Of a DNA stretch of 64,000 bases, positions 19,969 to 63,096 are shown in pieces. This stretch comes from Prochlorothrix hollandica PCC 9006 = CALU 1027. GTDB taxonomy: Bacteria; Cyanobacteriota; Cyanobacteriia; Prochlorotrichales; Prochlorotrichaceae. The notes beneath the pieces are model-generated. The model was not told the DNA's origin, did not search any database, and was given only the letters and a program-made list of their open reading frames with translations. Position numbers and translations under genes: made by a program. The stretch is from contig NZ_KB235933.1 of assembly GCF_000332315.1 (NCBI RefSeq), forward strand, positions 655,236 through 719,235, given 5' to 3'. How positions within the stretch are numbered: position 1 is the stretch's first letter; every line of letters begins with the position of its first letter.

Positions 19969-20460
19969 TTAAATCCAGCCCCTCTTTTGGTTAATGTCAG
20001 GGAGAAATTTGGTTAATGTTTGATTAAGACCCATGTTGCCATCCCCATTCAGGTCATACAAGTCAACCCGGTTAGCACTTGCGCCTGTGGGGAACGGATA
20101 GCTGTCACCGCCACCAGCCAGGAAGTTCAGCGTCACACTGAATCGCATCGCCACCCACAATGGCTGACCAGGATCAACCCAGGCATAGGTGCCAGGGGCG
20201 GTTGCAGCATTGAGTTGCGCCACGAGGTACTCGATCGCATTACCACTGGATCCCGCCTGAAAAGCATTCTCTAGCTCCACGAGGCCCAACACATCGGCCT
20301 CGATCGCCAGCACGGCGGTCACGAGTTTGTCGGTTTGGCGATCGAACTCATCAGCACTGTCCGTACCACGGGGATCTTGACCAATATTTGACCAATATTT
20401 GACCAATATTTGACCAATATTTGACCAATATTTGACCAATAACGGTATTCACCCCAGATC
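19969..20460 (-). pseudogene. Fragment of ExeM-like nuclease gene with 11-bp repeat expansion
   Basis: The segment translating as DPRGTDSADEFDRQTDKLVT through ATAPGTYAWVDPG is a near copy of the nuclease domain at about 8650-8870 of the intact-domain gene. It is then joined to unrelated sequence, with an EF-hand/dockerin-like DLYDLNGDGNMG tail, and stops. At its other end the single TTGACCAATAACGG of the parent has grown into an array of GACCAATATTT units. No start, no complete nuclease domain and only about 90 homologous codons remain, so this is a decayed duplicate. Confidence 0.75.
20379..20440. repeat. 11-bp tandem array (GACCAATATTT, 5 full + partial copy)
   Basis: Five perfect copies of GACCAATATTT at 20379-20433, then GACCAAT. 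The homologous place in the parent nuclease gene (about 8867-8880) has a single GACCAATA, so the array arose after duplication, inside a pseudogene. Confidence 0.93.
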
Positions 20461-39594: not shown

Positions 39595-40662
39595 TTAGTA
39601 TTGCTCCTTGGGTTGATAGTTAGTTTCAGTTAGGATGTGCGTCAGTTGCTGCAACTGTGGGCCGAGGACATAGTTAGACTGTTTGGCGGCGGCCATACAG
39701 CGCTGCTGAAACTGCCGTAAACCCTCCCCGGTCAGTGATCCTGGTTGCTGGGCATAGGTGCGGTAGCGATCGATCACAGTCTGTGAAGGCGATCCCTCTC
39801 CCGCTAGGGCAGTCCATTCCGTCACCTGCACCGTCAAATTCCCAAACCCCACAGGCTTCCCACTCCCCAGCCGCAGTTTCCAGGGCTGATCCAAATTTTC
39901 TAGCCCTAAGGCCAGCAACAGCGCTCCTATTTCCTGTTCCGAGAGGTTGGTAACCCTCAAACTGGTTTTGAACTGATAACCGGGTTTGGCTGTTTGGGTA
40001 GGAATATTCTTTTTATTTTCCGGCACGGTTTCGGTGGTCGAGACATAAAACTTCCGACCTGTCACCTGTTGCTGGCCATTGTCATAGGCTTGATAGGCGG
40101 GCTGGGGAGACTTCAATGTGGGCATATAGCTGGTTGTCACCTGCCCCGTGCCCACCGCTTCACTAAAACAGGCTAATCCCTGCCAGCCCATGGTTCCAAA
40201 GACCCGACAGGCCGGACAGAGACGACTGTTGCGCTTATCTTGTAGTGTTTGTTCTGGAGAAACCTTGACTGCGCCACACTTGGCTAGCTCTGAGGCAACG
40301 TGCAGCGTCTTTTTGCTGGTTGTTTTGGCTTGGGGTAACCCTAGGCAACTGGCTGTAATGGCTTCAAAGGCCGATCGCACCACCCCTTTGAGGGAGCTAC
40401 CGGGAATTAAAAGCTGGCGATCGCGCTGTATTGCTGTTTTAACCAGAGGTTCCTTGAGACCCACATCAGTGCCTAGGGCAATAATTCCTGAAGCTACCAA
40501 AGTAGCCGTTTCCACGTTTAAGGTGAGGGAGAGTATACCTGTGTAGCGTTGGTGATCAAAGCATTCTTGCCCAGCCGTGACCGGTTGTTTTTTGGCCCGA
40601 TCGGGTAAGCTAACAAAACGGTAGGGCTTATCTGCGGGACTGGTTTGAAGATTTGGGGGCAT
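39595..40662 (-). CDS. Cas7-like RAMP protein (type III, Csm3 group), CxxC-bearing
   Basis: 355 aa. The ATG at 40662 is taken because GAGGA lies 10 nt upstream; the frame is open to 40722. RAMP marks are LLIPGSSLKGVVRSAFEAI near the N-terminus and the Gly-rich loop RLGSGKPVGFGNLTV near the C-terminus. A LCPACRVFGTMGWQGLACFS segment with CxxC fits a zinc-binding insertion as in several type III Cas7 proteins. Where catalytic Cas7/Csm3 proteins have Asp before the PGSS motif, this one reads GLKEPLVKT, with Glu or no catalytic residue. It should form part of the crRNA-binding backbone. It lies between Csx19-like and the unknown 237-aa gene. Confidence 0.85.
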   Translation of the reverse strand: MPPNLQTSPADKPYRFVSLPDRAKKQPVTAGQECFDHQRYTGILSLTLNVETATLVASGIIALGTDVGLKEPLVKTAIQRDRQLLIPGSSLKGVVRSAFEAITASCLGLPQAKTTSKKTLHVASELAKCGAVKVSPEQTLQDKRNSRLCPACRVFGTMGWQGLACFSEAVGTGQVTTSYMPTLKSPQPAYQAYDNGQQQVTGRKFYVSTTETVPENKKNIPTQTAKPGYQFKTSLRVTNLSEQEIGALLLALGLENLDQPWKLRLGSGKPVGFGNLTVQVTEWTALAGEGSPSQTVIDRYRTYAQQPGSLTGEGLRQFQQRCMAAAKQSNYVLGPQLQQLTHILTETNYQPKEQY

Positions 40663-40752
40663 GGGAGTTGTTCCTCGCGATCGCATAGTTTGGGTGGGGG
40701 AAACGGTTAATGGAGGCTGCATTGGGCGCGGAAACCACGCCCCTACAATGGT

Positions 40753-41268
40753 TTAGACCTGGGAGACAAGGGCGACAAAATGGGTGATTCCCGTGTTCTT
40801 ATGGATAAAATGGCGCTGTCGCAGCGATTTTGGATCCAACTCTGGGGAAACTATAAACCCTTTGGGGAAGCGAGTTCCCTCACTGCCGCCCTCCTGGGGT
40901 AGCACTGCGTTATAGTCCACCGTTTTCCAGGGAATTACGGCTTGATGCTCCTGAAGCGGGGTAAACCCAGGGAAAGGGGTCTCACTGTCCGCCCGTCCTA
41001 ACAGCAACAAATGATACTGGGGCGGCTTCTGGGCGAGACGACGCGATCGCCGCTCCCAGCGCAACTCCAAACTCTGGGTAAATACCTGCCCTACCGGACT
41101 GAGACCTTTGGGTAAATACTGGGTCTCAAAGGTGGACTGATCGATCAAGCCACTGACCCGGTGATGCCAGCGCAGGAAATAGTAGGGCGAAAAATTCCCT
41201 AATGGCTTGAGAGTTGCCAAAACCGTTTCTGGGTCGTCCACCAATTGCCATCCCACAAATCCATTCAT
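40753..41268 (-). CDS. csx19: Csx19-like type III-D accessory protein
   Basis: 171 aa. The ATG at 41268 overlaps the stop of the upstream RAMP gene as ATGA, showing translational coupling. The sequence (GNFSPYYFLRWHHRVSGLID, QSLELRWERRSRRLAQKP, FIHKNTGITHFVALV) has no catalytic motif that I can point to. Its size, position between RAMP genes and general pattern fit the Csx19 family (TIGR03984), which is a marker of subtype III-D and a component of the effector complex. The assignment is by context and overall resemblance rather than a decisive motif. Confidence 0.55.
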   Translation of the reverse strand: MNGFVGWQLVDDPETVLATLKPLGNFSPYYFLRWHHRVSGLIDQSTFETQYLPKGLSPVGQVFTQSLELRWERRSRRLAQKPPQYHLLLLGRADSETPFPGFTPLQEHQAVIPWKTVDYNAVLPQEGGSEGTRFPKGFIVSPELDPKSLRQRHFIHKNTGITHFVALVSQV

Positions 41269-42215
41269 GCCGCTTTCTCCTCTGACAAAACTATACTCCA
41301 GGACTTGACGGCTAGCCCAAACAACGTTTTGACGAGTACCTCTCCGCTCCAGACCTGTTCCACCCCAAACCCTAAATCCATCGATTTAGCTCCAACGGGG
41401 GTTTCCGTTTGGCGATCGGGCTTGGGAAATCCATACTCCCCGGCTTCAGCCGCCGTCAGAAACTCTCCTGCTCCCAACAGCGTCCGATATTCCCAGCGTT
41501 TCTCGGCATTCCCCAAAAGCTGAAACTCGCTGTTTCTTTCCTCCCGAATACAGCCCGGATAGGCCACCGTTGCTTTCTCCAACGTCACCGACACCAACCC
41601 CAACCCCCGCGACTTGGCAAAGCCCAAACTAAACCAGCCTTCCTCCAAATCCCGCAGCACCAAGCCGATTAAGCCCAACTGAGCTAGGCTAAAGTTCTTC
41701 AGGTGGATTTTTGTCTTAAATTGGCCCCCGGTGCAGACTTGGAACTGAAAAAGACTCCCTCCCGCCGTCGAGCCGAAGACCCGATCGATGGCCACCCCAT
41801 TGCGCTCCTCTAGTTGCACCTCCCCCACCGGGTAGGCATCTTCCACCCGAAACCGGCTAGCCATCTCCGTACTGCCAAAAATTTGCTCCGTAAAAGAAGA
41901 GAACTGATAGATTTTCTCCGCTTTGTTTTTTTTAACCGCTTGTTGTAGGGGATCATTTGCCCACAATCCCAAACCGGCACCATTCGGTTTTTCACCGCCA
42001 ACTGTGCGCACAATCCGCTCGGCATGGGCACGAATCGCTCCCTTGAGGCTGCTGCCCGGTAAATAAATACAGCGCTGGCCCCCGTGGTAGGTTTCCACAA
42101 ACTCCATGTCCGGCTTGGTGGGGTCTGCCCCCTGTTTGCCAGACTTAATCAGGATCGGTCCCTGGGGACTGAGGGACAATTCGATCGTGCAATGGTTCAC
42201 TAATTTATTGTGCAT
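41265..42215 (-). CDS. Cas7-like RAMP protein (Csm3 group)
   Basis: 316 aa. N-terminal ferredoxin-like strand CTIELSLSPQGPILIKSGKQ, a candidate catalytic Asp in GADPTKPDMEFVE, then IYLPGSSLKGAIRAHAERIV. A middle segment IFGSTEMASRFRVEDAYP and ERNGVAIDRVFGSTAGGSLF is the conserved Csm3-type thumb and RNA-contact region, and the Gly-rich loop is LGFAKSRGLGLVSVTLEK. It should bind the crRNA backbone and may cut target RNA at 6-nt steps. It is preceded by AAGAGGTG 7 nt before the ATG. Upstream, a 103-bp MITE now separates it from the csm3 gene; before insertion the genes were about 19 bp apart. Confidence 0.85.
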   Translation of the reverse strand: MHNKLVNHCTIELSLSPQGPILIKSGKQGADPTKPDMEFVETYHGGQRCIYLPGSSLKGAIRAHAERIVRTVGGEKPNGAGLGLWANDPLQQAVKKNKAEKIYQFSSFTEQIFGSTEMASRFRVEDAYPVGEVQLEERNGVAIDRVFGSTAGGSLFQFQVCTGGQFKTKIHLKNFSLAQLGLIGLVLRDLEEGWFSLGFAKSRGLGLVSVTLEKATVAYPGCIREERNSEFQLLGNAEKRWEYRTLLGAGEFLTAAEAGEYGFPKPDRQTETPVGAKSMDLGFGVEQVWSGEVLVKTLFGLAVKSWSIVLSEEKAA

Positions 42216-42260: not shown

Positions 42261-42363
42261 TACAGCAGTCCTAAATGGGTCGTGTGGTGTTCGACCTCCG
42301 GGCGCGCACCACCCAAGGGGTTTCAGGGATCGAGATCCTTACAACTGATTTAGGGTTGCTGTA
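42261..42363. mobile_element. 103-bp palindromic MITE, copy 2 (inside CRISPR operon)
   Basis: TA-CAGCAGTCCTAAATGGG ... CTGATTTAGGGTTGCTG-TA, exactly 103 bp with both TAs, same as copies at 10231 and 52546. The internal palindrome is imperfect here (GTGTGGTGTTCGACC / GGGCGCGCACCACC). It has entered the last codons of the csm3 gene and supplies a new stop codon. Confidence 0.9.
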
Positions 42364-43235
42364 TTAATGAAATCACCTTTAATCTTGTCCATGAGGGCTT
42401 GCGCCCACAACTCTCGATAGATTTCGATGTCTGCATCACTCTTGGCATAGATGTCTGCATCACTCTTAGCATATCGAGCTTGCTGCTGGTTCACTAAAGC
42501 TTGGAGATAGGTCAGTAGGTCGTCTTTCTGGCTATCAAACCACCAAAAATCATCTATTTTGAGCTTTACGACTCCCAATCCCCGCGATCGACCGCCCCCT
42601 AGGGGAATTTGCTCCTGCTCAAATTGGCTTAAGCCCAGGACTAACAAGCCTAGCTCCCATTCTTCGGCATTTTCGACGATGATTTTGACCTTGAAGGGGG
42701 TGCCGGGGGGGACGACTTGGAAGTTGTAGAGTTTGTCGGCGGTTTCGGTGTCTCGATCGATGGCGACCCCATCCCGCTCCTGGTATTGCCCAAACCATGC
42801 CCCATCCTGCACCAACAGATCCCGCACTTGGAATTTGCTGGCTAGCCAGGGGGAGCCAAATAGGGCAGAAATGCGATCGGTTCCCTTCAAAATGTCGTCA
42901 GTGAGGGCTTGATCCTTTTGTTTATGTTCTTTTTGTTTATGTTCTTTTTTGAGGGCAGTTATCTCCTGCGCAGTGATGGACCATTCTTTTTCGTTGCTGG
43001 GGTCGGCCACTTTGTGACGGTTGTTCCCATAGATGCCCCGTAGGAAGCTTTCGAGGCGCGATCGCAGGGCACCTTTGAAGCTGGATCCGGGAATAAAGGG
43101 GTGTCCTAGGGCATCTTTGACAACGGGAATGTCGGAGCCGATGGGTTCGGTCGATCGGCCTGCCCCAATCCGTAGGGCGGTGACGGTGGTCAGGGTGCCG
43201 TTGAGTTCAAGGCGACTAGTAAAGGTATCAAACAT
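42339..43235 (-). CDS. csm3: Csm3 (Cas7), backbone and target-RNA nuclease subunit
   Basis: About 298 aa from the ATG at 43235 (MFDTFTSRLELNGTLTTVTA); an in-frame ATG at 43268 is the alternative. Canonical Csm3 motifs are ALRIGAGRSTEP, then SDIPVVKDALGHPFIPGSSF, where the Asp of SDIPV matches the catalytic Asp of Csm3, then KGALRSRLESFLRG, LFGSPWLASKFQVRDL, RDGVAIDRDTETA and the Gly-rich loop LGGGRSRGLGVVKLK. It forms the crRNA filament and cuts target RNA. Two in-frame microduplications are seen (KEHKQ twice; YAKSDADI twice). The last eight residues (TATLNQL and stop) are MITE sequence; without the MITE the end would read NSMALIVLT. Confidence 0.88.
   Translation of the reverse strand: MFDTFTSRLELNGTLTTVTALRIGAGRSTEPIGSDIPVVKDALGHPFIPGSSFKGALRSRLESFLRGIYGNNRHKVADPSNEKEWSITAQEITALKKEHKQKEHKQKDQALTDDILKGTDRISALFGSPWLASKFQVRDLLVQDGAWFGQYQERDGVAIDRDTETADKLYNFQVVPPGTPFKVKIIVENAEEWELGLLVLGLSQFEQEQIPLGGGRSRGLGVVKLKIDDFWWFDSQKDDLLTYLQALVNQQQARYAKSDADIYAKSDADIEIYRELWAQALMDKIKGDFINTATLNQL
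42426..42473 (-). repeat. 24-bp in-frame tandem duplication in csm3
   Basis: Two copies of GATGTCTGCATCACTCTT(G/A)GCATA encode YAKSDADI twice near the C-terminus of Csm3. A second, 15-bp duplication encoding KEHKQ lies at about 42915-42945. Confidence 0.88.
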
Positions 43236-43282
43236 GAGCGGAAACAGTTTATAGAGGATAGGAACCATGTCAGGGAATTGTT

Positions 43283-44743
43283 CTAGACTATCTCTTCCAC
43301 AAAGATACAATCATTCCAATAGGCTTGGTTCTCAGGCTGAATAGTTTTAAAGATGTCCACCAAACTTTCCACTAGTGTCTTGAAGCTCATGAATGAATTA
43401 TCATTCAAGGGCTTAAAGCCATGGGCAAAGATACTATTGTTCCGTATATTTACCTGATTAGTGATTCTGTTGAGATCTTGATCAATGGCTAAAGGATCAT
43501 CAAGAGCTTTCAGCAACTTGTATCCATTGATTAAGTCAATAATATTTGGCAACTCAGTCATATTCTCAGGCTTAACTCCTTTTTTAGATGTAGATAAACC
43601 ACAAGTAATGTATTTTTCTAGCAATGAATCTGAGCTGATTTTATTTTGTAACTGACTATTATTATAGTCAGGACATTTAGTATCCAGACCATAAGTACTA
43701 AGACGTTGCTGACTTAGTAATTCTAGTAAACGATACCAAAGTAAGGTTGCAACATCTCGTTTACCACGCTTCTCCTGACGAATTGCACAAGCACGTAGTG
43801 TTCCCATTAAAGGTAGATAGAGATTTGGTTTACTTAAAGCTACTGTTTTATTTTCTCCCAATTCATTCAAGGATAGGTCTAGATTCTCTAAGGTTTGAAT
43901 CTGTTGCTCTAGAATCGTTGGGTAAGATGACAAGATAGTAGAATCAGTTTTAAGGCGTAAATATCGTTGAAGACAATCCTTTGATAGTCGAAGATCAGTT
44001 ACTGAATCTTTTATTTTTAGATCATCCCAGTGCGCATAAGCAGAGCAAAGTAATGCCAGTGGTTTATAGCGATCGGGTGTAGATGTTTTGTGTTCTAAAT
44101 TCTCTAGAATTATTTTTGAACTGCTATAGTCTAGCTGTCGAAATAAAGCTTGAGCCTTAGTAAATTCAAGATCTCCAAAGACATCATACGGGTTGTCTAA
44201 TAGAATTAAGGACTCACTGCCCGGATTAGGCTTACGCAGTATTGTGTTATAGTCAGAACTAACATATACTAAATCGGCTCCAATTAGGTTACCTGCAAGA
44301 GTACAACCTGCAACCATTGCTTTGGTTCCACCGGTTGGATCCACTGCAATGCGTGTGGGTCTTTCCCACTTCTCATAGACTTCACGAATCTTTTGATAGA
44401 TATTCTGAAGTCGAGTCTCACTGATTTCAGCCATTTCAATTTGGCTGGCCTTGAGATTTGCCTCATCTATAATTCGATCAAGGAGTTTTTTAGACTCAGC
44501 CGTATATAGTAGGCAAACTTGAGTTGGCCTGAAGGTTAGAACTGACAAAATAATTGGTTCGGGAGATAGACCAACGCTCAAAATTAGACAGTCATAGGCT
44601 TGAGGATGTTTTTGTTGCTCCCGTGGAATGACATATTCTTTTAGGGCAGGAAAAACATGATTATCATAAAATTGACTTCGTTCTTCACTATTATTTAGAG
44701 ACTGCCATTGCTCTATGACCTGATCTAAAGCAGTACGATCCAT
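43283..44743 (-). CDS. CARF-HEPN effector of TIGR02710 family (Csm6/Csx1-like)
   Basis: 486 aa. The N-terminal CARF domain (YDCLILSVGLSPEPIILSVL, then VDPTGGTKAMVAGCTLAGN at about 144, the ligand-binding loop) should bind cyclic oligoadenylate made by Cas10. A helical middle part follows, and near the C-terminus RNNSIFAHG (R434, H441) is the RxxxxxxH motif of a HEPN ribonuclease active site. On activation it would cut RNA non-specifically, causing dormancy or death of the infected cell. The ATG at 44743 has AGGAG 7 nt upstream. It lies inside the effector operon, between the Cas11-like gene and csm3, so it is expressed with the complex that activates it. Confidence 0.85.
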   Translation of the reverse strand: MDRTALDQVIEQWQSLNNSEERSQFYDNHVFPALKEYVIPREQQKHPQAYDCLILSVGLSPEPIILSVLTFRPTQVCLLYTAESKKLLDRIIDEANLKASQIEMAEISETRLQNIYQKIREVYEKWERPTRIAVDPTGGTKAMVAGCTLAGNLIGADLVYVSSDYNTILRKPNPGSESLILLDNPYDVFGDLEFTKAQALFRQLDYSSSKIILENLEHKTSTPDRYKPLALLCSAYAHWDDLKIKDSVTDLRLSKDCLQRYLRLKTDSTILSSYPTILEQQIQTLENLDLSLNELGENKTVALSKPNLYLPLMGTLRACAIRQEKRGKRDVATLLWYRLLELLSQQRLSTYGLDTKCPDYNNSQLQNKISSDSLLEKYITCGLSTSKKGVKPENMTELPNIIDLINGYKLLKALDDPLAIDQDLNRITNQVNIRNNSIFAHGFKPLNDNSFMSFKTLVESLVDIFKTIQPENQAYWNDCIFVEEIV

Positions 44744-44785: not shown

Positions 44786-45295
44786 CTATCGGGAACTTTC
44801 ACCAATTAAAGCTGTATGCTCTCGCGCCAAGTAACCTAAGTAGAGCTGTGCTAGTTTTAGGTGGGCTTCCTTCTCTAAACGATCCTGCTCTAACTTCAGA
44901 TACTCTTGAATAGTTTGCTGGGCATCCTGGTTAGTTTTAACTAAAGTAGATTGAAGATCCTGAAAAATAGTCTTTGCATTGATCTTTAGATTGTCAAGCC
45001 TTGCTACCAGTTCTTTAGAAAAAGCCCCTTTACCATCTTTCCAGATTGCACTAGAACCCTTCCTACCAACTTGGTAGCGGATATAGTTCTTGATAACTTC
45101 TAAGCTGCTTCCTGGCTCAGTAGCTACAGTTAACACATTCCGAAAAGGAGACTTTTCCTTTGTATCCTGAGCAATCTTAAAGTCCTTTGCAAGCTTTGTA
45201 ATTTGCTCCAGGATGGTGTCTAAATGCTGTCCCATGATCTGAGTTGTGAGCAGGTCAACGCGGCGTTGAATTTCGATAGGTGTCAGTTCGCTCAT
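44786..45295 (-). CDS. Small helical subunit, Cas11-like (type III-D)
   Basis: 169 aa, start overlapping the csx10 stop as ATGA (45292-45295). The sequence is almost wholly alpha-helical (RRVDLLTTQIMGQHLDTIL, KTIFQDLQSTLVKTNQDAQ, EYLKLEQDRLEKEAHLKL). The central FRNVLTVATEPGSSLEVIKN and YIRYQVGRKGSSAIW resemble the small-subunit proteins of type III-D loci, which sit in the inner filament of the complex and contact target RNA. Size and coupling to csx10 support the assignment; there is no catalytic motif. Identification rests mainly on context. Confidence 0.6.
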   Translation of the reverse strand: MSELTPIEIQRRVDLLTTQIMGQHLDTILEQITKLAKDFKIAQDTKEKSPFRNVLTVATEPGSSLEVIKNYIRYQVGRKGSSAIWKDGKGAFSKELVARLDNLKINAKTIFQDLQSTLVKTNQDAQQTIQEYLKLEQDRLEKEAHLKLAQLYLGYLAREHTALIGESSR

Positions 45296-46629
45296 ACAGC
45301 GTTCTCCTGAAAAATGGTGTGAAACGGACTACAAACTTGAACTTGGCCGAAGCCCTCGGTGGTACGCTCCCCCACACCGAGCCACTCCAGGCGCTCCAGA
45401 GCCGGAAGCCAGCGATCGTCAAACCCCTCCTGCGGAACACTGAAGAAAAACACCGAGCCGCTATTCGTCACCAGATCCACATCCTTCATCAGTCCCCAGG
45501 CCGCATTCCAGCCCGATCGATAGTCATGGCTGGTATACACACCACACAGTTGCACATCATGGTCTAGCATCCCTTCAATCCCCAGCATCTCCACCAGCAT
45601 CGCCTCAGAAATCACCGTCGTTCTGCGCCACGGATCCCACAAAATGGCATCAGACTGGAGATCGAGGCTAAAAAAGGTGCGATCTGGATCCAGCGCATCC
45701 TTATCCTTGACCTTGAGACCAAACGCATCAGCCCACTCGCCATAGCGCTTCACCAAAGCCTTGTTAAAATCCCGATGGCGAGCTTGCAGAGAATTTGTTA
45801 GATCTTTAGACCCTTGGTTGGCTAGCTCAACCTTTAAGCAGACCTTACCCAGTCCCCGCGATCGGGACCCCCCTAAGTAAAGCACCTTCAGGTCACTCAA
45901 ATATTCTTGTAAATTCTTAAGGAGCTTCTCATTATTAGAATAGACCTGACTTTTAAGAACCGTGGGATTAAGTTGCTTTTTAGCATTTTGATTCGGTTTT
46001 TCGTCATTTTTGGCTAACTGAACCTCATTTAAGACTTCAATACTGTAGAGAATTTCATCCTCCGCCGTGGCTCGTCGTCGATTAATCCCCACCCGCGTTA
46101 GTAGTCGCGTTTCCAGGGATACTGACTCATAGGTTTGATGGGATTTAACCCCATAGAACCCCAAAAATTGTTCAACGCGATCGTTTTTACGATCCACCGG
46201 GTCATAGACCAAGCCCAACCGCTCTGTACAGAAGCGATCGATCAACGTATCAAACACCCCCAGATTCTCAGGATCATCAGGCTTCGTCTTAAAGCCCGGT
46301 TTTGCCTTAGAACTGACCGCTGTAGCCGGTAAGACCCCACAGCGCTCCACCTTCTGGGGATTATCCGTCCAGGAGTCTTGCTGGGGCAGTGTGGGATAGG
46401 CATGGGTGAAAATTACCGCCTCATCCGCCGTGAACAGCTTCGTAAAATCGCCACCGGGATCCTCGTCAGAATTGGCTTGGTGAGATTGGCGGAGTAGTTG
46501 CCCCGCGATCGTCCCCCGCAGCACTGTTCCCGGTACATACCGCTCCACCTCACTCATCGAACCCCCCGGTTTCTGGCGACCCACGGCTAAAGGAGCTTTT
46601 AAGGTCAACGTTAACTCTAGTTTATTCAT
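45292..46629 (-). CDS. csx10: Csx10, Cas5-like RAMP subunit of type III-D complex
   Basis: 445 aa from the ATG at 46629, which has GGGAG upstream and starts 2 bp after the previous stop (open frame extends to 46659). N-terminal MNKLELTLTLKAPLAVGRQK is followed by the Csx10 signature VERYVPGTVLRGTIAGQLLR. Further RAMP marks are LLTRVGINRRRATAEDEILY and the Gly-rich LGGSRSRGLGKVCLKVE. Csx10 is the marker of subtype III-D and takes the Cas5/Csm4 place, holding the 5' handle of the crRNA and contacting Cas10. The C-terminal part (RTTVISEAMLVEMLGIEGML, WLGVGERTTEGFGQVQVC) carries a second RAMP fold. Confidence 0.88.
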   Translation of the reverse strand: MNKLELTLTLKAPLAVGRQKPGGSMSEVERYVPGTVLRGTIAGQLLRQSHQANSDEDPGGDFTKLFTADEAVIFTHAYPTLPQQDSWTDNPQKVERCGVLPATAVSSKAKPGFKTKPDDPENLGVFDTLIDRFCTERLGLVYDPVDRKNDRVEQFLGFYGVKSHQTYESVSLETRLLTRVGINRRRATAEDEILYSIEVLNEVQLAKNDEKPNQNAKKQLNPTVLKSQVYSNNEKLLKNLQEYLSDLKVLYLGGSRSRGLGKVCLKVELANQGSKDLTNSLQARHRDFNKALVKRYGEWADAFGLKVKDKDALDPDRTFFSLDLQSDAILWDPWRRTTVISEAMLVEMLGIEGMLDHDVQLCGVYTSHDYRSGWNAAWGLMKDVDLVTNSGSVFFFSVPQEGFDDRWLPALERLEWLGVGERTTEGFGQVQVCSPFHTIFQENAV

Positions 46630-46631
46630 GT

Positions 46632-47408
46632 TTACTGCTCTCCCTTCAGTTTCTGCCACTGTTCCGCACTGGGTTTGAGTTTATCAACGTTACCAACCGT
46701 CCAGGTCACCCAGCCCAGTCCCACCGATTTGCTACCACCCAGCGCATGGATTTGGTATAAAGCGCTGAGCAGCAGCGGTAAAGCCTCCTCCGGTGCGTCA
46801 GACGGGAGGAATAACGTCCCCTTAAACATCAAATCGGCATGGGGGGGAGACGTTTCCAGAAAATACAGTTTTTGATCCTCTGCGGTGCCCCGTTGCCGGT
46901 TAAGGGTCACCCCAGGCCGCAGGACTTCCGGTAACAACGCTGGCTCCACCTCACAGACCAAATCCTCCGCGATCAGCCGAGAGGGGAGAACCGGATTGCC
47001 AAAAATCTGGCAAATCAGACAGTGGTGCTTGGGATAGTTCGGAACCTGATAGTCAGGCCGCTCAAATATCTGCAGATCGGAGAGATCCGAGGAGAGATCC
47101 GCCCACTGGGGGCATAGGTTTTCCGCACGGGGTGACTGACACACGGGCCAACCCAGGGCACGGGCCAACCGTTCGCAGCCATGGCGCAACCGCCCCTTCA
47201 GTTGGGAAGCGGGAATCACCAACTGCCCCCTGCCATTGCGCACGATCGGCTTATCGGCCAAGGACCCACTGGATCCCCCAGCCCCCACGCAGAGGGCTGT
47301 TTCTACGGTGGCGGTGAGGTCGATCGGCTGGCCGTAAAAGGGGTTGGAGTCCGTGGTGGAGTCCGTGGTGGAGTCCGTGACCGGTATTAAATTCCTGAGT
47401 CTAATCAT
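46632..47408 (-). CDS. Cas7-like RAMP protein (Csm3 group), next to cas10
   Basis: 258 aa from the ATG at 47408, which overlaps the cas10 stop as ATGA; the open frame runs to 47477. RAMP features: DLTATVETALCVGAGGSSGS, candidate catalytic Asp in ADKPIVRNGRGQ, VIPASQLKGRLRHGCERLA, a CxxC in HHCLICQIFGNPVLPSRL, NRQRGTAEDQKLYFLE and the Gly-rich LGGSKSVGLGWVTWT. A 12-bp DNA unit repeated three times (47346-47381) gives STTDSTTDS near the N-terminus. It should be the backbone subunit nearest to Cas10/Csx10 or the counterpart of Csm5 at the other end; the sequence alone does not tell which. Confidence 0.85.
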   Translation of the reverse strand: MIRLRNLIPVTDSTTDSTTDSNPFYGQPIDLTATVETALCVGAGGSSGSLADKPIVRNGRGQLVIPASQLKGRLRHGCERLARALGWPVCQSPRAENLCPQWADLSSDLSDLQIFERPDYQVPNYPKHHCLICQIFGNPVLPSRLIAEDLVCEVEPALLPEVLRPGVTLNRQRGTAEDQKLYFLETSPPHADLMFKGTLFLPSDAPEEALPLLLSALYQIHALGGSKSVGLGWVTWTVGNVDKLKPSAEQWQKLKGEQ

Positions 47409-49882
47409 GGGTTGATCTCCGGAGTTGTAAGCGGAGTGGAGTCGCTGGGATCGCTCTGCACAGCAGGATAAGAGCAAAATGGCAATAAATCGACTAAATC
47501 CCTCAAAATTGTCGTATAAACTGTATTGCCCTTCTTATTTTGACTGGACATCCAAGGGGCCAAATTGCCTGAATTGCTGTCTGCCTCACACCAGGGACCT
47601 TCAAAATTAGTTTTGAGGAGATTGCCCTTTTCCGCCTTGAGACGGGTGCGGAAGTAGCGGTAGTTGAGCATGGCGGTGCGCTTGCCTTGGGCCAGGAAAC
47701 TGCGGATTTGATAAAGCTGGGACTTGGGAAACTCTGATTGTTTCAATGCGGCCAGCGTCTTCAACAGTCCGCCAATTTCATGGAGGGTATAGGGACCCCC
47801 ATAGAGTTTGAGGCTATGGTTTTTAGCCTTGGGATTTTGGCTGGAAGCTGGCTGATCAATCTCCAAGGCTTGCTTCCGAAAACTGCTAATCTTGGAGGAG
47901 ATCATGGTCACAGATTTAAGTACCATAAAGTCAATTGTCCCACCATAATAATGGTACTCTTTTTTCAGAACTTTAGCACGTTGTTTTGCTGATTTTAGCA
48001 ATTGCTCCACTAGATTTTGAGCATAGTAAATGGGGGTATGATCGCCGGTGATTAAAACTCCGATCGACATACTCAGGTGACAATTTGATGGGGGGGCATT
48101 TAATGGATTGTAATGGTGAGACTTCTGCTGTGTTTTCTTGAGACTATCTTGTTCCGCTACAGATCCTTTCACTTGATAGTTAGGGTTCCTCTCAATCAGA
48201 ATCTTTTCAAATTCTTCACCGATACTCTGGGCAATCGCCAAAGCCTGGTCTGCGGGCACAACCAGGAAAACATCATCCCCACCAATGGTCACAATTTCAA
48301 AGGGATGAATCCAACTCCCATTGCGATTGTCTTCATCTGGGCTTAAGCCTTGAATTTCCCGCACCTGCAAATGCTTCGCTAGGGCCAGATAAACGGCTTG
48401 TTCCGTTGCCTCAGAAATATCTTTACTAAATCGCTGATAGTCCTGGGGTGTTTTCAAGCCCTGAATATAGCCACCTATATTATTACCATCGGCATAGATA
48501 TAGGCAACAAATCCCTGCCCTGGATCAGTGACATTGCCAATTTCTCGCAAACTTCGGGCTTCTGTAATATCTGTAGCATCTGTAACATCTGTAACTAAAT
48601 GCCCTTGATGGTAGCGATCCTTTTCTTGGCTACAAAGACCAGGGCCCGTATCAGTATCTTTAAACGATCGCTCAAACCGCTGTACCCAGCTTTCAAAGAA
48701 GAGCGCTAAGGGTTGCCAAGGGTCTTCACCAATCGGCCTTTGCGACTGTAGGCACTTAAACCAGGCAGGTAATTCACCCTGTCCGTCCTGGCGTTTGGTG
48801 ATTGCCCCGACAACTCGTTTTCGGGCCAGAACCTCCGAGATTTTTGTTTTATTATCAACCGTATTGGTCGCTTCTGGGCGGGCGATCGCCGAGCGACGAT
48901 CGTACTCATCCCGCAACAAATAGGGGTGAGTCTCTAGCATTGGGGGATAACGACGACTCAGGCGATGGGGAGAACTCGATAATCCTGATCCTCCCGATCG
49001 TCGCTGGTTAAAGGCGATGGCCAGCTTTGTCACCAGTTCATTGAAGCTTTTACGGCTCTGGAAATCATCAGAAAACGGTTGATCGTGATGGCGAAAGTAA
49101 GAGGCAACTAAGCCGTGGGTTTTTTGGGTCTCTGGGTGCAGAGTCTCCAGATTTTCCTGCCACCATTGCGCCTTATTTCCCTGCACTTGCCCTTGTAAAC
49201 AGCCCAAGCGCAGTTCTAAGAGGCGGAATCTTTCCCCCACTGCACAGGAGTTGGCCGTCAGGGTTTCCTCGCCATAGCGAGCTTCAATGGCATCCGCCAA
49301 CTCATCCACAAAGGCCGGGGGACAAAATGCTAGGATATTGCCCCCCGTGGAGTAAATTATTAGGTCAGGAATCAGAGCTTCAGCTAGTTTTTCAGATCTG
49401 TTCTTGAGCCACTCCTGAATGGTCAGGGAAACCTGCTCATAGTTCTTGATTTTTACCTTTTTTCCAAAAAATACAGGTAAATCTACTAAGTTAATGCGAT
49501 CGAGCAAGGCCGAAGCACCTCGCACCTCCGGTAACTTTGACCCCTCAAACACATAGGTCTTAATCTTCGTTGCTCCCCCATAGACAAGGCCGATCTTGGC
49601 AGTCCATAGGCTGGAAGGGCTTGGATTGTCTAATAAAGCCTGGAGATCTGACTGAGTTTTGGGATATGGAAGCTGGGAGAGGGCCGTAACTTGATCGACA
49701 AACCGCTGCAAGTCTGCTGGCACATCGTCGGGTTTATTGTTCTCTAAGGCTAGAATTGCGGCCTTTAAGTCATCTAATGGGTACTGGGGGATTTGTTCGG
49801 GTCCCCAGGCCAAACACCAGACTAAAGCTCTGTCCAACGTACTCAAACTGGCTTGGCTTGAATTTTTGCCTTCCGGAGTCAT
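47405..49882 (-). CDS. cas10: Cas10, type III-D large subunit with active GGDD cyclase motif
   Basis: 825 aa. The palm domain has GGDD at about 534-537 (VTIGGDDVFLV), the active site that makes cyclic oligoadenylate, and the first-palm motif YIYADGNNIGGYIQ upstream. N-terminal KIGLVYGGATKIKTYVFEGS and PEVRGASALLDRIN belong to the Cas10/Cmr2-type N-terminal part. No HD nuclease motif is seen at the N-terminus, so it should signal but not cut DNA, as in type III-D. The ATG at 49882 has AGGAG 8 nt upstream. A repeated stretch VTDVTDATDITE (48561-48594) between domains is a microsatellite-like expansion. Its stop overlaps the next gene's start. Confidence 0.93.
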   Translation of the reverse strand: MTPEGKNSSQASLSTLDRALVWCLAWGPEQIPQYPLDDLKAAILALENNKPDDVPADLQRFVDQVTALSQLPYPKTQSDLQALLDNPSPSSLWTAKIGLVYGGATKIKTYVFEGSKLPEVRGASALLDRINLVDLPVFFGKKVKIKNYEQVSLTIQEWLKNRSEKLAEALIPDLIIYSTGGNILAFCPPAFVDELADAIEARYGEETLTANSCAVGERFRLLELRLGCLQGQVQGNKAQWWQENLETLHPETQKTHGLVASYFRHHDQPFSDDFQSRKSFNELVTKLAIAFNQRRSGGSGLSSSPHRLSRRYPPMLETHPYLLRDEYDRRSAIARPEATNTVDNKTKISEVLARKRVVGAITKRQDGQGELPAWFKCLQSQRPIGEDPWQPLALFFESWVQRFERSFKDTDTGPGLCSQEKDRYHQGHLVTDVTDATDITEARSLREIGNVTDPGQGFVAYIYADGNNIGGYIQGLKTPQDYQRFSKDISEATEQAVYLALAKHLQVREIQGLSPDEDNRNGSWIHPFEIVTIGGDDVFLVVPADQALAIAQSIGEEFEKILIERNPNYQVKGSVAEQDSLKKTQQKSHHYNPLNAPPSNCHLSMSIGVLITGDHTPIYYAQNLVEQLLKSAKQRAKVLKKEYHYYGGTIDFMVLKSVTMISSKISSFRKQALEIDQPASSQNPKAKNHSLKLYGGPYTLHEIGGLLKTLAALKQSEFPKSQLYQIRSFLAQGKRTAMLNYRYFRTRLKAEKGNLLKTNFEGPWCEADSNSGNLAPWMSSQNKKGNTVYTTILRDLVDLLPFCSYPAVQSDPSDSTPLTTPEINP

Positions 49883-49951: not shown

Positions 49952-51214
49952 TTAAGTATTAGCCTGGATCCATGCCTTGATGGCTGATCCCAAGTGGGGC
50001 AAGTCCCGACGACCGAACACAGCTACCCGGCGATCGCGGGTTTCCGTCGCCAACTCTTCTTGCAGCCATTCCGGGCGATCGGACAAACAGACAAGTCCGA
50101 CCCGCGCCTCAATACCGCCCAGTTGCCGCGATCGGACTCTAGCCTCTAGCAACTTTTGTTTGCAGCGCTGCTGACTCCCTGTCGTCGAGCAAGATAGGGC
50201 AAAAAGCTGGTAATGGCGTATAAAAGCCACATCAAATTCAAACTTTGGCCCATTTCGTTGAGGATTTTGGGGATCGGTAATATTGAAGGACATTTTAGCT
50301 TCATGAATGCCACAGGAGTCAGCAATCTGCTGCACTTGAGCCAAGGTGTAATGTTCCAACCAGACCCCATCCAGCCACTGACAAAGGGTTGTGAGAGGCT
50401 GCGCTTCTGCGGCAGACAAGCCAACCTTGGACCCCGCCTGTAAATTCCACTGGCCAGACCCACAGGCCAAATGGCGCTGTAGAACCCGTAGCCACTCCAC
50501 AGGTAAGCGATCCACCGCCAGCGGCTCAAGCTGTTCCAATTGCCACTCCTTGCGCCAGTAGGCTTGCTTGGGCGGAACCTTGGCGGTGGCGCAGAGAACC
50601 TGATGGCACCAGGAGCGCCATGCTTGGCCCAACGCCTGATCTTGGTGTAGCGTCGCAAAATCCACCGCCGCAGCAGGGAGCAGGGGCTGGGCACGGGGGG
50701 GAGAATTCCCTTGCCACCGCAGCCCATGCAAGTAGAACAAAGACTTAAATGACAGCTTGAGGGGCACCTTAAAGCGAGGACTCAGGTCTTTCTCGTTATC
50801 AATCACCATTTCCAGGGTGTTGGAGTCTAAATAACTGAAAATCGTATCCGGATAGCGATGGGCGAGGAAGCGATAGGCATGGACAGCCATGACCTTGGTA
50901 CCCCCGGTGTAATTCATCCCCACCCGCCCTGGGAGGTCAGTCGCCACCTCCCTAAGCCGCTGGCGAATCACCGATGGCTCCGCCTGGTAGGTAGCCAAAT
51001 CCACTAAGGTGACCGTCCCAAAGCGGGAGCTGTCCTGGAGGAAGGTTTGCAGGTGTTGGGCTTGGGAGCGGGTGCGATCGGTGTGGATCAGATAAGCCAT
51101 ACCCCTCGGATTGACCAATTCAAGGGCAGCCACTGCGTTAGGAAGATTATTTTCCCCCAGTAACAGGAACAGATGATCGGCCCGGTAGGCATCGGGAATA
51201 TGGAGGGAATTCAT
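49952..51214 (-). CDS. Can2/Card1-like CARF protein with degenerate nuclease motif
   Basis: 420 aa. Residues 1-150 are a CARF domain (DHLFLLLGENNLPNAVAALE, RVGMNYTGGTKVMAVHAYRF), the sensor for cyclic oligoadenylate. The C-terminal third has the outline of the PD-(D/E)XK-type domain of Can2/Card1 (DUF1887): PKFEFDVAF (D328) then QLFALSCSTTG, where the usual E-x-K reads S-C-S (341-343). CKQKLLEARVRSRQLGGIEA and RVGLVCLSDRP follow. With E and K missing, cleavage may be lost, changed, or use nearby residues such as Glu in KLLEARV; cyanobacterial relatives may share this variant. The gene is first after csx3-AAA and 69 bp before cas10. A direct repeat of 22 bp lies upstream (51223-51268). Confidence 0.8.
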   Translation of the reverse strand: MNSLHIPDAYRADHLFLLLGENNLPNAVAALELVNPRGMAYLIHTDRTRSQAQHLQTFLQDSSRFGTVTLVDLATYQAEPSVIRQRLREVATDLPGRVGMNYTGGTKVMAVHAYRFLAHRYPDTIFSYLDSNTLEMVIDNEKDLSPRFKVPLKLSFKSLFYLHGLRWQGNSPPRAQPLLPAAAVDFATLHQDQALGQAWRSWCHQVLCATAKVPPKQAYWRKEWQLEQLEPLAVDRLPVEWLRVLQRHLACGSGQWNLQAGSKVGLSAAEAQPLTTLCQWLDGVWLEHYTLAQVQQIADSCGIHEAKMSFNITDPQNPQRNGPKFEFDVAFIRHYQLFALSCSTTGSQQRCKQKLLEARVRSRQLGGIEARVGLVCLSDRPEWLQEELATETRDRRVAVFGRRDLPHLGSAIKAWIQANT

Positions 51215-51283: not shown

Positions 51284-52234
51284 TTAACTAGGGTTGGAGG
51301 GGGAGAGGCACTGTGATCGGATTCGATCTAACAAGACTGGTGGGATTTTCGAGGTTTGCCCCGCGATCCAAGGACCAGCAGTGAGTTCTAAATAGGGCAT
51401 TTCCTGGTGCAGGCTGAAGCCAGAATCAAGGCTACTGTGGATAACAGCCACGGGTTGGAGGTTGCCCCGATCGCGGCAGAATTCATGCCATGGTTCGATT
51501 TCCCTGGGATTTGAACTAATAATGAGATAGTGGGAGCAAGCCTCTAGCAGGGGCTGCTTTTCTGGTTGCACTTTGCCCCCCACATCGACTATGACTAAAC
51601 GTTGCTGTCGCCGGAGATTGAGAATGGCTTGGGCGTGATAGGGAAAGAACCGATCTGTTAAGGTGCCTTTGTATTGATTTTTCCAAGCCTCTCGTTCTTC
51701 TGGGGTGGTGTCCTCCCCCAGTTCTAACCACCAGTTTCCTTCCCCATCCCACTGGGCACGTTGTAAGTAAACCGCCCCATTGTCTTGCATTAAGGCTTGC
51801 CAAAGGGCATAGGCCAACACACTTTTGCCACTATCCGGTGGTCCCACAATCAACAGCGCGGGACACAGATCCTGGGTAGAGGTCGCGCTGGGATCGACGG
51901 GCAAGACAGCCCCGATCTGGGTTTGGCGGGAGTGGGTTGCCACCACCACGGCCCCCTTCAGGCGTGGGTCATAGCACGCAACCCAAGCTGTTGGATGCAG
52001 TTCATGGACTAAGTATCCATACAGCCAGATGGGTGCCCGCCCTGAAATGACTACTCCTCCTGCCGCATCAATGCCGATCGGTAAGCGTAGTTCCCCTAAA
52101 TCTTGGGGCTGAATCATTCGATCTGGGCTTGTTAACTCGATCGTCAGGACTTGGTAGCTAACATTGTGGAGCCAACGACGTTCACTCAAACCGAGAATAA
52201 TAGGGGAATCCACAGGGGATATAGCAGGGGGCAT
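51284..52234 (-). CDS. csx3: Csx3-AAA fusion: ring nuclease with P-loop domain
   Basis: 316 aa from the ATG at 52234 (GGAG 7 nt upstream; the frame is open to 52345). Residues 1-112 are Csx3: VISGRAPIWLYGYLVHELHP then AWVACYDPRLKGAVVVATHS, with H80, D89 and R91 at the spacing of the catalytic H60, D69 and R71 of the archaeal Csx3 ring nuclease, which degrades cyclic tetra-adenylate. Residues from about 125 form a P-loop domain with Walker A GPPDSGKS (131-138) and a Walker B-like RLVIVDVGGK. Csx3-AAA fusions are known in cyanobacterial type III loci; the role of the ATPase part is not settled. As first gene of the operon it would switch off the signal that turns on both CARF proteins. Confidence 0.85.
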   Translation of the reverse strand: MPPAISPVDSPIILGLSERRWLHNVSYQVLTIELTSPDRMIQPQDLGELRLPIGIDAAGGVVISGRAPIWLYGYLVHELHPTAWVACYDPRLKGAVVVATHSRQTQIGAVLPVDPSATSTQDLCPALLIVGPPDSGKSVLAYALWQALMQDNGAVYLQRAQWDGEGNWWLELGEDTTPEEREAWKNQYKGTLTDRFFPYHAQAILNLRRQQRLVIVDVGGKVQPEKQPLLEACSHYLIISSNPREIEPWHEFCRDRGNLQPVAVIHSSLDSGFSLHQEMPYLELTAGPWIAGQTSKIPPVLLDRIRSQCLSPSNPS

Positions 52235-52545
52235 AACAGACTCCAGTAAAACAGTAATTAGATCAAGAACAACTCTTAGACAAAGATTTTGTATTGGGCA
52301 GGTAAACCCCACCCCTACCGGATTTTGGTTAGCATTAAGTGGCAAAATCCCGCCCCTACTGGGTTTTGGGTTGGTGTAGGGGTCAGGAAACCTGACCCTG
52401 CCGGTGGAATGGGGTTCTAGCTAGTTTTGTCAGTCCCTCAGGGTCAGCGGTGTTCCCTTGAAATTCTCCCTTGAATAACTTGGGGATTCTGCGTAGTATA
52501 CTCCCTGGATTGAAGGGGGGTATTCTAAAGTAGTGCAAACGTTGT
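52235..52545. promoter_or_regulatory. Divergent promoter region of the CRISPR operon
   Basis: About 310 bp without a gene, between the minus-strand operon and the plus-strand regulator. It holds a perfect hairpin GGGTCAGG-AAA-CCTGACCC (52380-52398), a possible operator or dispersed palindrome, and AT-rich stretches near 52240-52300 and 52480-52530. It also contains GCGCCCCTAC-like spaced motifs common to intergenic repeats. No CRISPR repeat was found. Confidence 0.45.
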
Positions 52546-52648
52546 TACAGCAGTCCTAAATGGGTTGTGTGGTGTGCCCCCGGAGGGGGCACACCACACC
52601 AAGGGTTTCAGCTATCGAGATGCCTACAACTGATTTAGGGTTGCTGTA
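52546..52648 (+). mobile_element. 103-bp palindromic MITE, copy 3 (upstream of CRISPR regulator)
   Basis: TA-CAGCAGTCCTAAATGGG ... TTTAGGGTTGCTG-TA with a perfect internal palindrome, GTGTGGTGTGCCCCC / GGGGGCACACCACAC. Same length and orientation as read for copy 2 on this strand. It ends directly at the first of three 13-bp repeats that lead into the regulator's start codon, so it lies in its 5' leader or promoter. Confidence 0.92.
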
Positions 52649-52689
52649 TGTCTAGGAGTTATGTCTAGGAGTTATGTCTAGGAGTTATG
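52648..52689 (+). repeat. Three 13-bp repeats each carrying RBS and ATG
   Basis: ATGTCTAGGAGTT is repeated at 52648, 52661 and 52674, and the gene starts at ATG 52687. Each unit places AGGAG 2 nt before the next ATG, so there are three ribosome-binding site/start pairs in a row, in three different frames. Confidence 0.9.
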
Positions 52690-54177
52690 ATCTCAACCTC
52701 TATCCCCGTCTACCTTCAGTCTCCCCCCGCCCCTGCAACCCTGCACTGGCTGAGTGAAGGACTTCTGGGTTCCCGGTTCCTGCGGACTATGCGCCTGTGG
52801 GACTGTCTCCAGCACTTCTATGGTGCCCCTTCTATTGCCCAGGATCCTTGGCCCGATGCTTTTTCCTATCCTGATTGGCGCGATCGCCGGTTTGCCCCCA
52901 GCCATAACTCCCAGGAACTCGCGACCCCTCACCAAATACATGCAGCCTGCCAAGGCACACCCTGCCTTTGTCAACAAAGTAGTTTGACCCTGCTGTGGGG
53001 GGACGTTCAGCCCCCAGGCTCTTGGTTACAGGACATGGCTCAGCTCGCCCACCTGTCTCAGGCCGATCTAGGGAATTTGCTCCAGCAATCGCCCTTTGCG
53101 GTGGTTCACCGCGTCCTCCGCAATGACCTCCAAGCCCTTGTCCACCAAGGTTTCCTGAGTAAACCGTCTAGGGGACGCTATCGGTGTCTCACCCCTCAGA
53201 CCTTGCCCCTGCCTCCAGCACCGCCCCAATCTGGAGCCATGCAGCATCCCTTGGCGAGTCTCTCTGATAGCCAATGTTGGGATGTGATGCGGGCCTTGGA
53301 AGCCGTTGCTTTTCTTCAGCCCAGCCTTGAACCCATCATTCAGCAAATCTGGGAGCATCAATATCAGCAGTCCCATCCAGCTCTCCCCACCGCAACTGCC
53401 CAACGTGTTTTCTTTGAGGTGAACTACATTTTTGCTGAATCCGATCGCGATCGGGTTGATACCTATCAGTTTCAATTGGAACAACTCTGGCAGTCTGCTG
53501 TCCCTGGTGTCATTCAGTTTGAGTCGTGGTTGCCCCATCAACACGCTTTAGCCACCGCTACGGTTTACCCGGTCTGTATCCATTACACACGGCGGGCGAA
53601 GTATTTGAGTGCCTATGGGACTCATGCGGATGGCACCTGGGGTTGGCATAATTACCGTCTCGATCGCATTCGATCGCAACAACTTCGCCTATTGCCCTGG
53701 GGAGATCCCACCGTTCCCGATCAACTGCGTGACCTCTGGCGTTCCGGTAGCCTCCCCACGCCCACAGCGGTTCTCAGCAGTCTGGAAGAAGCCTGGGGCT
53801 TTAATTTTTATCTGCCTAAGGTGCCGATGATCCTGCGCTTTAACCGCCGCTTTGCTCAGGACTATGTGACCCAAACCCAACGTCATGAAACGTTTCAAGC
53901 GATCGATTACCCTCAGATCCTTCACTGGCTCACCACTGTCCTGGGTTCTAGGGCTGAACTACAGACGACCCGCGAACTTTTAGCCCAACGATCCGCCGAG
54001 GATGCCTATTTCCGAGCTTGGATTCGCCTCGGCGATATTAATATCACGATGCGCCTGCGAGAGTGGCGACCGGCTGGGGAGGTGATTTACCCCCTGGAAT
54101 TGAGGAAGATGATGCTTGAAGAATTGGAACAAGAACAGAACTGGTATAAAGCGATAGACTGCATCAATGAACCGTAA
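52687..54177 (+). CDS. TIGR03985-family CRISPR-associated WYL-type regulator
   Basis: 496 aa, divergent from the type III operon. N-terminal LHWLSEGLLGSRFLRTMRLW is the typical opening of the TIGR03985 family. A middle helix-turn-helix-like part (DLGNLLQQSPFAVVHRVLRN, DLQALVHQGFLSKPSRGRYR) leads to a WYL-type domain (VYPVCIHYTRRAKYLSAYGT, WHNYRLDRIRSQQLRLLPWG), known in other proteins to bind nucleotide or nucleic-acid ligands and to control transcription. It is probably the transcription regulator of the neighbouring cas operon. Start at 52687, within a 13-bp repeat array and 38 bp after a MITE. The 3' end is ordinary. Confidence 0.82.
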   Translation: MISTSIPVYLQSPPAPATLHWLSEGLLGSRFLRTMRLWDCLQHFYGAPSIAQDPWPDAFSYPDWRDRRFAPSHNSQELATPHQIHAACQGTPCLCQQSSLTLLWGDVQPPGSWLQDMAQLAHLSQADLGNLLQQSPFAVVHRVLRNDLQALVHQGFLSKPSRGRYRCLTPQTLPLPPAPPQSGAMQHPLASLSDSQCWDVMRALEAVAFLQPSLEPIIQQIWEHQYQQSHPALPTATAQRVFFEVNYIFAESDRDRVDTYQFQLEQLWQSAVPGVIQFESWLPHQHALATATVYPVCIHYTRRAKYLSAYGTHADGTWGWHNYRLDRIRSQQLRLLPWGDPTVPDQLRDLWRSGSLPTPTAVLSSLEEAWGFNFYLPKVPMILRFNRRFAQDYVTQTQRHETFQAIDYPQILHWLTTVLGSRAELQTTRELLAQRSAEDAYFRAWIRLGDINITMRLREWRPAGEVIYPLELRKMMLEELEQEQNWYKAIDCINEP

Positions 54178-62638: not shown

Positions 62639-63096
62639 GGCGGGTGTTTTGGGTCGGTTGGGGGACGCGATCGCCCATGGCCGATCGGGTGCCAGACTCC
62701 CCCCATAGCTAGGGCTACCCCTGACCTAAGCCCCAGGATCTGCCCCGTACCCCCTAGCACCTAACCCCTAGCACCTAACCCCTAGCACCTAACCCCTAAG
62801 CTCCAGTCCCTAAACCCAAGGGAAACCCAAGGGAAACCCAAGGCAAACCCAAGGCAAACCCAAGGTAAACCCAAGGCAAACCCAAGGCAAACCCAAGGTA
62901 AACCCAAGGTAAACCCAAGGTGTAAATCCCAGCGACCCGTGGTCCCTGCCCAGCCTACGGGGACTCAGCAGCAGCCTAAACGGCATCCAGACCAGCTACC
63001 CCTGGCCTAGGTCAATCCGACGGCTCCTAGCCTCTCCGCCCTCGCTTCCCCTTCTCCTTAGCCCCGTTTTCCTTCATCCATCTGTACGTTCCCCCT
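62639..63096. repeat. Repeat-rich leader of zwf (14-bp x3 and 11-bp x10 arrays)
   Basis: Two tandem arrays are found in this gene-free 458-bp stretch. CCTAGCACCTAACC occurs three times (62753-62794). AAACCCAAGG(G/C/T) occurs ten times without a break (62812-62921), with the last base of each unit varying. The final 175 bp before the zwf ATG have no clear promoter or strong ribosome-binding site. Confidence 0.93.

Follow-up and report, generated by a model that had tools for sequence, protein, structure and literature searches.

A Can2-type CARF nuclease of Prochlorothrix hollandica with serines at the site of the ExK motif

Sequence comparison indicated that the protein encoded at 49952-51214 in the DNA analysed (the window, 64,000 nucleotides from Prochlorothrix hollandica PCC 9006 = CALU 1027) is a further member of the known T. 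brockii type of Can2, termed SxT, and very probably an active cA4-type Can2 nuclease of this subclade that serves as effector of its type III-D CRISPR operon. An earlier note, made from the letters alone, had read S-C-S at the ExK site, with Ser at both the E and K positions and D328 retained; this was confirmed, the motif being S341-C-S343. The note had left the choice between a non-catalytic binder of cyclic oligoadenylate (cOA) and a nuclease with a relocated site, and the analysis favoured the second of these.

The protein and its operon

The gene is an intact ORF of 420 codons on the minus strand with an ATG start. The 420-aa protein matched the Card1-type CARF family PF23400 (28.6 bits, cut-off 24.6, residues 18-142) and the Card1-type endonuclease family PF09002 (36.4 bits, cut-off 26.4, residues 280-417), and PADLOC identified it as CARF4--CARF_PDDEXK (3.7e-147), while no NCBIfam family was found at E up to 1. 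An AlphaFold2 (AF2) model from 34 aligned sequences reached a mean pLDDT of 91.8 and a pTM of 0.91, and placed S341 on a strand (336-342) and E357 on a helix (348-369). The CARF motifs read G20-E-N-x-L-P-N26 and N101-Y-T-G-G-T-K107. The features of the protein, all on the minus strand, are:

49952..51214, minus: Can2-type CARF and endonuclease protein, 420 aa (Pfam, PADLOC, AF2 model)
50768..51181, minus: CARF domain, residues ~12-149 (PF23400 and conserved columns)
49961..50398, minus: PD-(D/E)xK-fold nuclease domain, residues ~273-418 (PF09002 and model elements)
50354..50356, minus: E287, helix Glu, expected metal-site residue (aligns via VC1899 with Cdn1 E274)
50231..50239, minus: E326-F-D328, the E-x-D pair (aligned to residues mutated in solved structures)
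50183..50194, minus: S341-C-S343-T344, which substitutes ExK (alignments, conserved columns)
50132..50155, minus: K354-xx-E357-xxx-R361 on helix 348-369, proposed relocated catalytic residues (conservation and model)

Both Card1-type domains, the E-x-D pair and a locus with a GGDD Cas10 were present, as in Can2/Card1 proteins (DUF1887, the CARF4 PD-(D/E)xK effector), but the strand after the Asp, where orthodox ExK-type members have E-x-K, carried S341-C-S343.

Among solved structures, T. brockii Can2 (8q3y) gave the best sequence match, with 1.5e-22 for the single protein against 1.1e-8 for SthCan2. The clade profile matched 8q3y at 3.9e-57, SthCan2 at 2.9e-16 and Card1 at 4.1e-9. Foldseek and VIA matched Can2 structures to the window model over almost its full length. 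In VIA, 8q3z (T. brockii Can2) scored Z 31.2 (rmsd 3.7, 375 aligned, 25% identity) and was outranked by whole-fold Z by VC1899, an ExK protein (Z 32.3, rmsd 3.1, 357 aligned). VC1899 has been reported to be inactive in vitro (PMC7969007). According to their PDB titles, the T. brockii Can2 entries are cA4-bound, ssDNA-bound (mostly E341A) or, for E364R, oligo-T DNA-bound (8q44). We take 8q3y to 8q44 to be the entries of Jungfer, Sigg and Jinek 2024 (NAR 52:462).

T. brockii Can2 resembles the window protein in its full-length CARF and nuclease parts, E-x-D pair, S-x-T-T in place of ExK and a helix with K..E...R..Q. Its letters in 8q3y are FELD...ISLTTSS, so that S-L-T-T-S stands against S-C-S-T-T of the window protein, and its E364, mutated in 8q44, is Gln349 here. 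On the numbering of T. brockii Can2, E357 and K354 correspond to E372 and K369. SthCan2 (7bdv), VC1899 (1xmx), Card1 (6wxw) and Cdn1 (9u49) share domain order, fold, helix Glu and E-x-D with the window protein, but keep E-C-K and have a Lys in the helix column where the window clade has Glu. Csx1/Csm6-type CARF-HEPN effectors likewise combine a CARF sensor with a type III operon, although their nuclease is a HEPN ribonuclease and that of the window protein a metal nuclease; the operon itself encodes one such effector, at 43283-44743. Papers on cyanobacterial Can2 were not found in the literature search, the available portion of an article on cyanobacterial CARF proteins (PMC9676260) mentioned neither Can2 nor Card1, and the term SxTTS was not found in the literature searched, outside which the T. 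brockii Can2 paper lay.

Gaps of 69 bp separate the Can2 gene both from the Csx3-AAA frame on its upstream side and from Cas10 on its downstream side. The other genes of the operon are:

51284..52345, minus: fusion of the ring nuclease Csx3 (Crn3) with an AAA domain, immediately upstream of Can2 (PF09620 1e-33, PADLOC Csx3-AAA 1.5e-94)
47405..49882, minus: Cas10, GGDD cyclase motif at 48272-48283 (TIGR02577 2.1e-33)
46632..47477, minus: Csx7-like RAMP (PF03787 4.7e-21)
45292..46659, minus: Csx10, type III-D RAMP and marker (TIGR02674 4.4e-112)
44786..45295, minus: Csm2-like small subunit (PADLOC Csm2 2.4e-30)
43283..44743, minus: second cOA effector, CARF-HEPN, R-x6-H at 43421-43444 (TIGR02710)
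42339..43310, minus: Csx7, RAMP (TIGR02581 2.1e-67)
41265..42215, minus: Csx7/Csm3-like RAMP (TIGR02581 7.3e-30, below the curated cut-off; PADLOC Csm3 2.4e-48)
39595..40722, minus: RAMP protein (TIGR03986 7.5e-35, below the curated cut-off; PADLOC Csm3 2.4e-38)

The best NCBIfam model for Cas10 was a III-B one, and GGDD was present. The TTG start of the Csx3-AAA frame is probably too early. A GGDD ORF was present in 36 of 38 homologous stretches with a Can2 gene (L003 and L098 being one place) and was not found in the remaining two, L104 and L118; tblastn with the Cas10 of L120 matched 34 of 39 stretches, with a partial match in L118 and none in L104. Both L118 (genome G245) and L104 (genome G176) carried an SxT-clade Can2 and are possibly eroded loci or loci with a diverged Cas10. 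Csx3-AAA was detected in 22 of 39 stretches, in 16 of them on the strand of the Can2 gene and no more than 300 bp upstream of it. It lay on the opposite strand in four Chloroflexota stretches, and several stretches end at contig ends. Ring nucleases occur in 66% of Can1-2 loci and are tied to effectors without intrinsic ring nuclease activity (PMC12409355), so that a Csx3-AAA neighbour is to be expected. Divergent from the operon, a WYL-like protein (52687-54177, plus strand; PF13280 below cut-off) is a candidate regulator.

A CRISPR array was not found in the window by a scan for exact, regularly spaced 20-mers. Such a scan, together with repeat lists of 4 tandem families in 1-39600 and, for 30000-64000, of the top 20 by size among at least 60 families, would let a degenerate array escape. 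All matches to Cas1 and Cas6 that the genome yielded lay outside the window. Among the families listed, a 104-nt repeat had two copies 10,285 bases apart and 85% alike, of which the copy at 52546-52649 lies upstream of the cas operon and that at 42261-42364 inside it, mainly between two RAMP genes; 11-nt short tandem repeats were listed at 20366-20452 and 62789-62942. Relatives of the protein were not found in one scan of viral contigs, leaving a viral origin unsupported, and the plasmid searches yielded four cyanobacterial plasmids each.

Conservation of the motif in place of ExK

The nuclease core of the window protein reads K324-F-E326-F-D328-V-A-F ... F338-A-L-S341-C342-S343-T344-T345-G346, followed by C351-K352-Q-K354-L-L-E357-A-R-V-R361. 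In HMMER alignments S341-C-S343 fell without gaps on S-L-T of 8q3y, and the S-C-T of the clade on E-C-K of 7bdv and 1xmx. Besides D328, the protein has also retained E326, the first acid of E-x-D, and E287 in the preceding helix, neither of which appeared in the earlier reading. The counterpart of E326 in T. brockii Can2 is E341, present as Glu in 8q3y and replaced by Ala in 8q41 (title: E341A), and D328 aligns via VC1899 with D294 of Card1, which is Asn in 6xl1 (title: D294N). In SthCan2 the E-x-D acids are E276 and D278, and their mutation killed activity (PMC7969007); in Cdn1, E274 belongs to a Mg network with D310, E323 and K325 (PMC12825302). The alignment was also inspected for an intact ExK elsewhere in the domain, which would have overturned the S-C-S reading, and none was found. 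One candidate, E305-A-K307, sits before D328, and E-x-K occurred at that place in only 5 of 35 aligned rows.

The earlier note had suggested looking for an S-C-(S/T) clade. A profile built from the SxT clade itself (E up to 1e-20) recruited 46 unique cyanobacterial and Chloroflexota ORFs, counting that of the window, and 43 of them carried S-x-[ST]. A pseudogene, a sequencing error or a chance occurrence was ruled out, because the ORF is intact and the motif is common to these homologues. The three exceptions read A-C-T (L034), S-C-I (L076) and Q-V-P (a degenerate paralogue in L079). Across the 46 ORFs, residue 328 was always Asp and residue 287 was Glu in 45, with a gap in the remaining one. 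Residue 341 was Ser in 44, Ala in 1 and Gln in 1, never Glu; residue 343 was Thr in 39, Ser in 5, Ile in 1 and Pro in 1, never Lys; residue 344 was Thr in 41, Ala in 4 and Ile in 1. Ser343 of the window protein is thus the minority form at a Ser/Thr position. Strict SxTTS is absent from this protein, whose S-C-S-T-T has Ser/Thr exchanges at positions 3 and 5, and since the fifth position varies within the SxT clade, the strict form is not required for membership. In the helix, K352, E357 and R361 were each present in 45 ORFs and K354 in 43. Residue 326 was more variable (Glu 34, Gln 9, Asp 2, Ser 1), so that in 12 of 46 ORFs the Glu mutated in the T. brockii substrate complexes is missing; either conservation here is less than strict or some relatives have been weakened. 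The nine relatives with a natural Gln belong to several lineages (L005, L019, L020, L022, L023, L031, L032, L069 and L075).

Within the class of the source genome, 32 of 388 genomes, counting that genome, contained a match to the window protein. When 400 genomes of the phylum to which L008 belongs (Chloroflexota) were searched with a profile, 34 had matches, 12 of them of SxT-clade type; the motif was read in 16 of the other 22 and was E-x-K, in shorter frames. A genome search with PF09002 matched 42 of 388 genomes, tallies that are lower bounds, and was used only as a source of ExK rows. It missed the window's own gene despite its 36.4 bits, its first pass being lossy. One Chloroflexota stretch (L079, genome G558) had two adjacent SxT-clade CARF frames of 580 and 469 aa. 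The degenerate one still matched the profile, in the CARF region (profile 7-167), and had lost E287, E326, S341, T343, E357 and R361 together. The pair may form a half-dead heterodimer resembling Can1 with its two halves.

A maximum-likelihood tree of 73 nuclease domains was rooted at its midpoint; it had several long ExK branches, and its bootstrap had not settled. The 45 SxT-clade rows fell on a single side of one branch, with support of 99/97 (98% of 200 bootstrap trees). These rows comprised T. brockii Can2 and 44 of the 46 ORFs, among them L034 and L076, which do not read S-x-[ST]; both L079 rows had been dropped (one degenerate, Arg at 357). T. brockii Can2 fell inside the SxT group, apart from the ExK types. 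The neighbours of the group were VC1899, SthCan2, Card1 and the ExK proteins L045 and L096 (98/85), and Cdn1, on a very long branch, was placed elsewhere. From the spread of ExK we infer that it was the ancestral state.

Helix residues as candidates for a relocated site

The note had pointed to the Glu of CKQKLLEAR as a possible substitute; this residue is E357. All 45 SxT-clade rows had Glu in its column and the 25 ExK rows had none, their residues being Lys in 10, Gln in 9, Arg in 4 and Thr in 2; this association rests on essentially one tree split and hence is not independent covariation. The 25 rows had been picked by a regular expression demanding ExK, with spurious matches removed (L053_527, L059_121, L059_144 and L064_145); ExK-type matches that were not picked include L066, L080, L082, L083, L085 and L089 to L092. 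Lys at 354 was found in 44 of 45 SxT-clade rows against 2 of 25 ExK rows, and Arg at 361 in 45 of 45 against 0 of 25. By alignment, the helix Lys of VC1899, common to SthCan2, Card1 and Cdn1, falls in the E357 column.

E357 follows S341 by 16 residues. The (D/E)xK carboxylate of Cfr10I, NgoMIV and related enzymes has moved to another point of the chain but kept its spatial position, and in COG4636 the Lys has moved to the adjacent helix, from E111 to K127, likewise by +16 (PMC551604). Relocation of this carboxylate in CCGG-family enzymes is described in PMC6344858 as well, and the motif of the family, PDX21-53KX12-13E (PMC4652773), sets the Glu 15 to 16 residues past the orthodox acid position. 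Given this agreement in spacing with Cfr10I/NgoMIV and COG4636, E357 is the leading candidate for a relocated Glu. The window clade shares with the Cfr10I/NgoMIV-type enzymes a helix Glu about 16 residues past the lost strand Glu, but those enzymes keep the strand Lys, where the window protein has S343 (Thr/Ser in 44 of 46 ORFs). Cfr10I/NgoMIV-type restriction enzymes are not known to carry a CARF domain.

That E357 resupplies the lost Glu of ExK is a proposal for which we see an even chance. The looser E326 beside a near-invariant E357 would fit a shifted metal site. More tentatively, both charges of ExK may have moved in the SxT Can2 lineage (Cyanobacteria, Chloroflexota, Thermoanaerobacter), leaving S and T/S on the strand and K354, E357 and R361 on the helix. 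The relocation to E357 may already be described in the study of T. brockii Can2.

Activity and significance of SxT Can2

The proposed response would begin with crRNA-guided binding of target RNA, which would turn on the Cas10 GGDD cyclase, as its motif and its family suggest. Cyclic tetra-adenylate would then bind across the CARF dimer, a step suggested by the conserved motifs and homologous structures. The nuclease domains would rearrange, with a divalent metal held by E287, E326 and D328; S341, S343 and T344 would touch the substrate at the orthodox Glu/Lys sites, and E357, perhaps with K354 and R361, would provide the missing charges from the next helix. Single-stranded DNA and/or RNA would be cleaved, and the adjoining Csx3-AAA ring nuclease, judging from its family, would break down cA4 and terminate the response.

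A second active arrangement, which overlaps with this one and which we consider rather unlikely, would have S-x-[ST]-T alone doing catalysis and K354, E357 and R361 serving dimerisation or a relay from the CARF domain. T. brockii Can2 reportedly cleaves single-stranded DNA and RNA and has SxTTS as a motif of its active site; its study is also reported to name SxTTS as binding substrate and to describe a relay that starts at the cA4 site, both of which would suit this arrangement. Helix residues conserved in a single clade can, moreover, be structural. Against it stand the 16-residue spacing between the lost Glu and E357, which agrees with that of the residues relocated in NgoMIV-type enzymes and in COG4636, and the lack of Glu from this column in the 25 ExK rows, where Lys, Gln, Arg or Thr is found.

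That the domain has lost its activity and only binds cA4, as a sponge, a regulator or a subunit partner, was the other option of the earlier note, and we regard it as improbable. Both ExK residues are missing, as is E326 in 12 of 46 ORFs; one nuclease-like half of Can1 naturally lacks active-site residues (PMC6981274), and one Chloroflexota paralogue, in L079, lacks nearly the whole residue set. That paralogue, however, indicates what decay looks like, namely the joint loss of E287, E326, S341, T343, E357 and R361, whereas in the clade at large S341, T/S343, E287, D328, K352, E357 and R361 are conserved across phyla and the other expected metal-ligand positions are mostly kept, which would be needless in a dead domain. 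Furthermore, T. brockii Can2, the nearest solved relative in sequence, also has S-x-T-T at the ExK site, and its ssDNA complex was crystallised with E341, the counterpart of E326, mutated.

With an active nuclease as the preferred reading, annotation by the ExK motif alone would label the SxT Can2 family dead, although in Cyanobacteria and Chloroflexota its members recur as effectors next to Cas10, and crystals with DNA exist for a member from another phylum. Taking S-x-[ST]-T and the helix Glu as the probable working site would revise effector annotation. A double relocation, if true, would exceed the single move of the Glu in Cfr10I or of the Lys in COG4636, and may underlie an altered substrate preference for single strands over supercoiled duplex. 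SxT Can2 would offer a simple mutational test of how active sites are rebuilt in PD-(D/E)xK enzymes.
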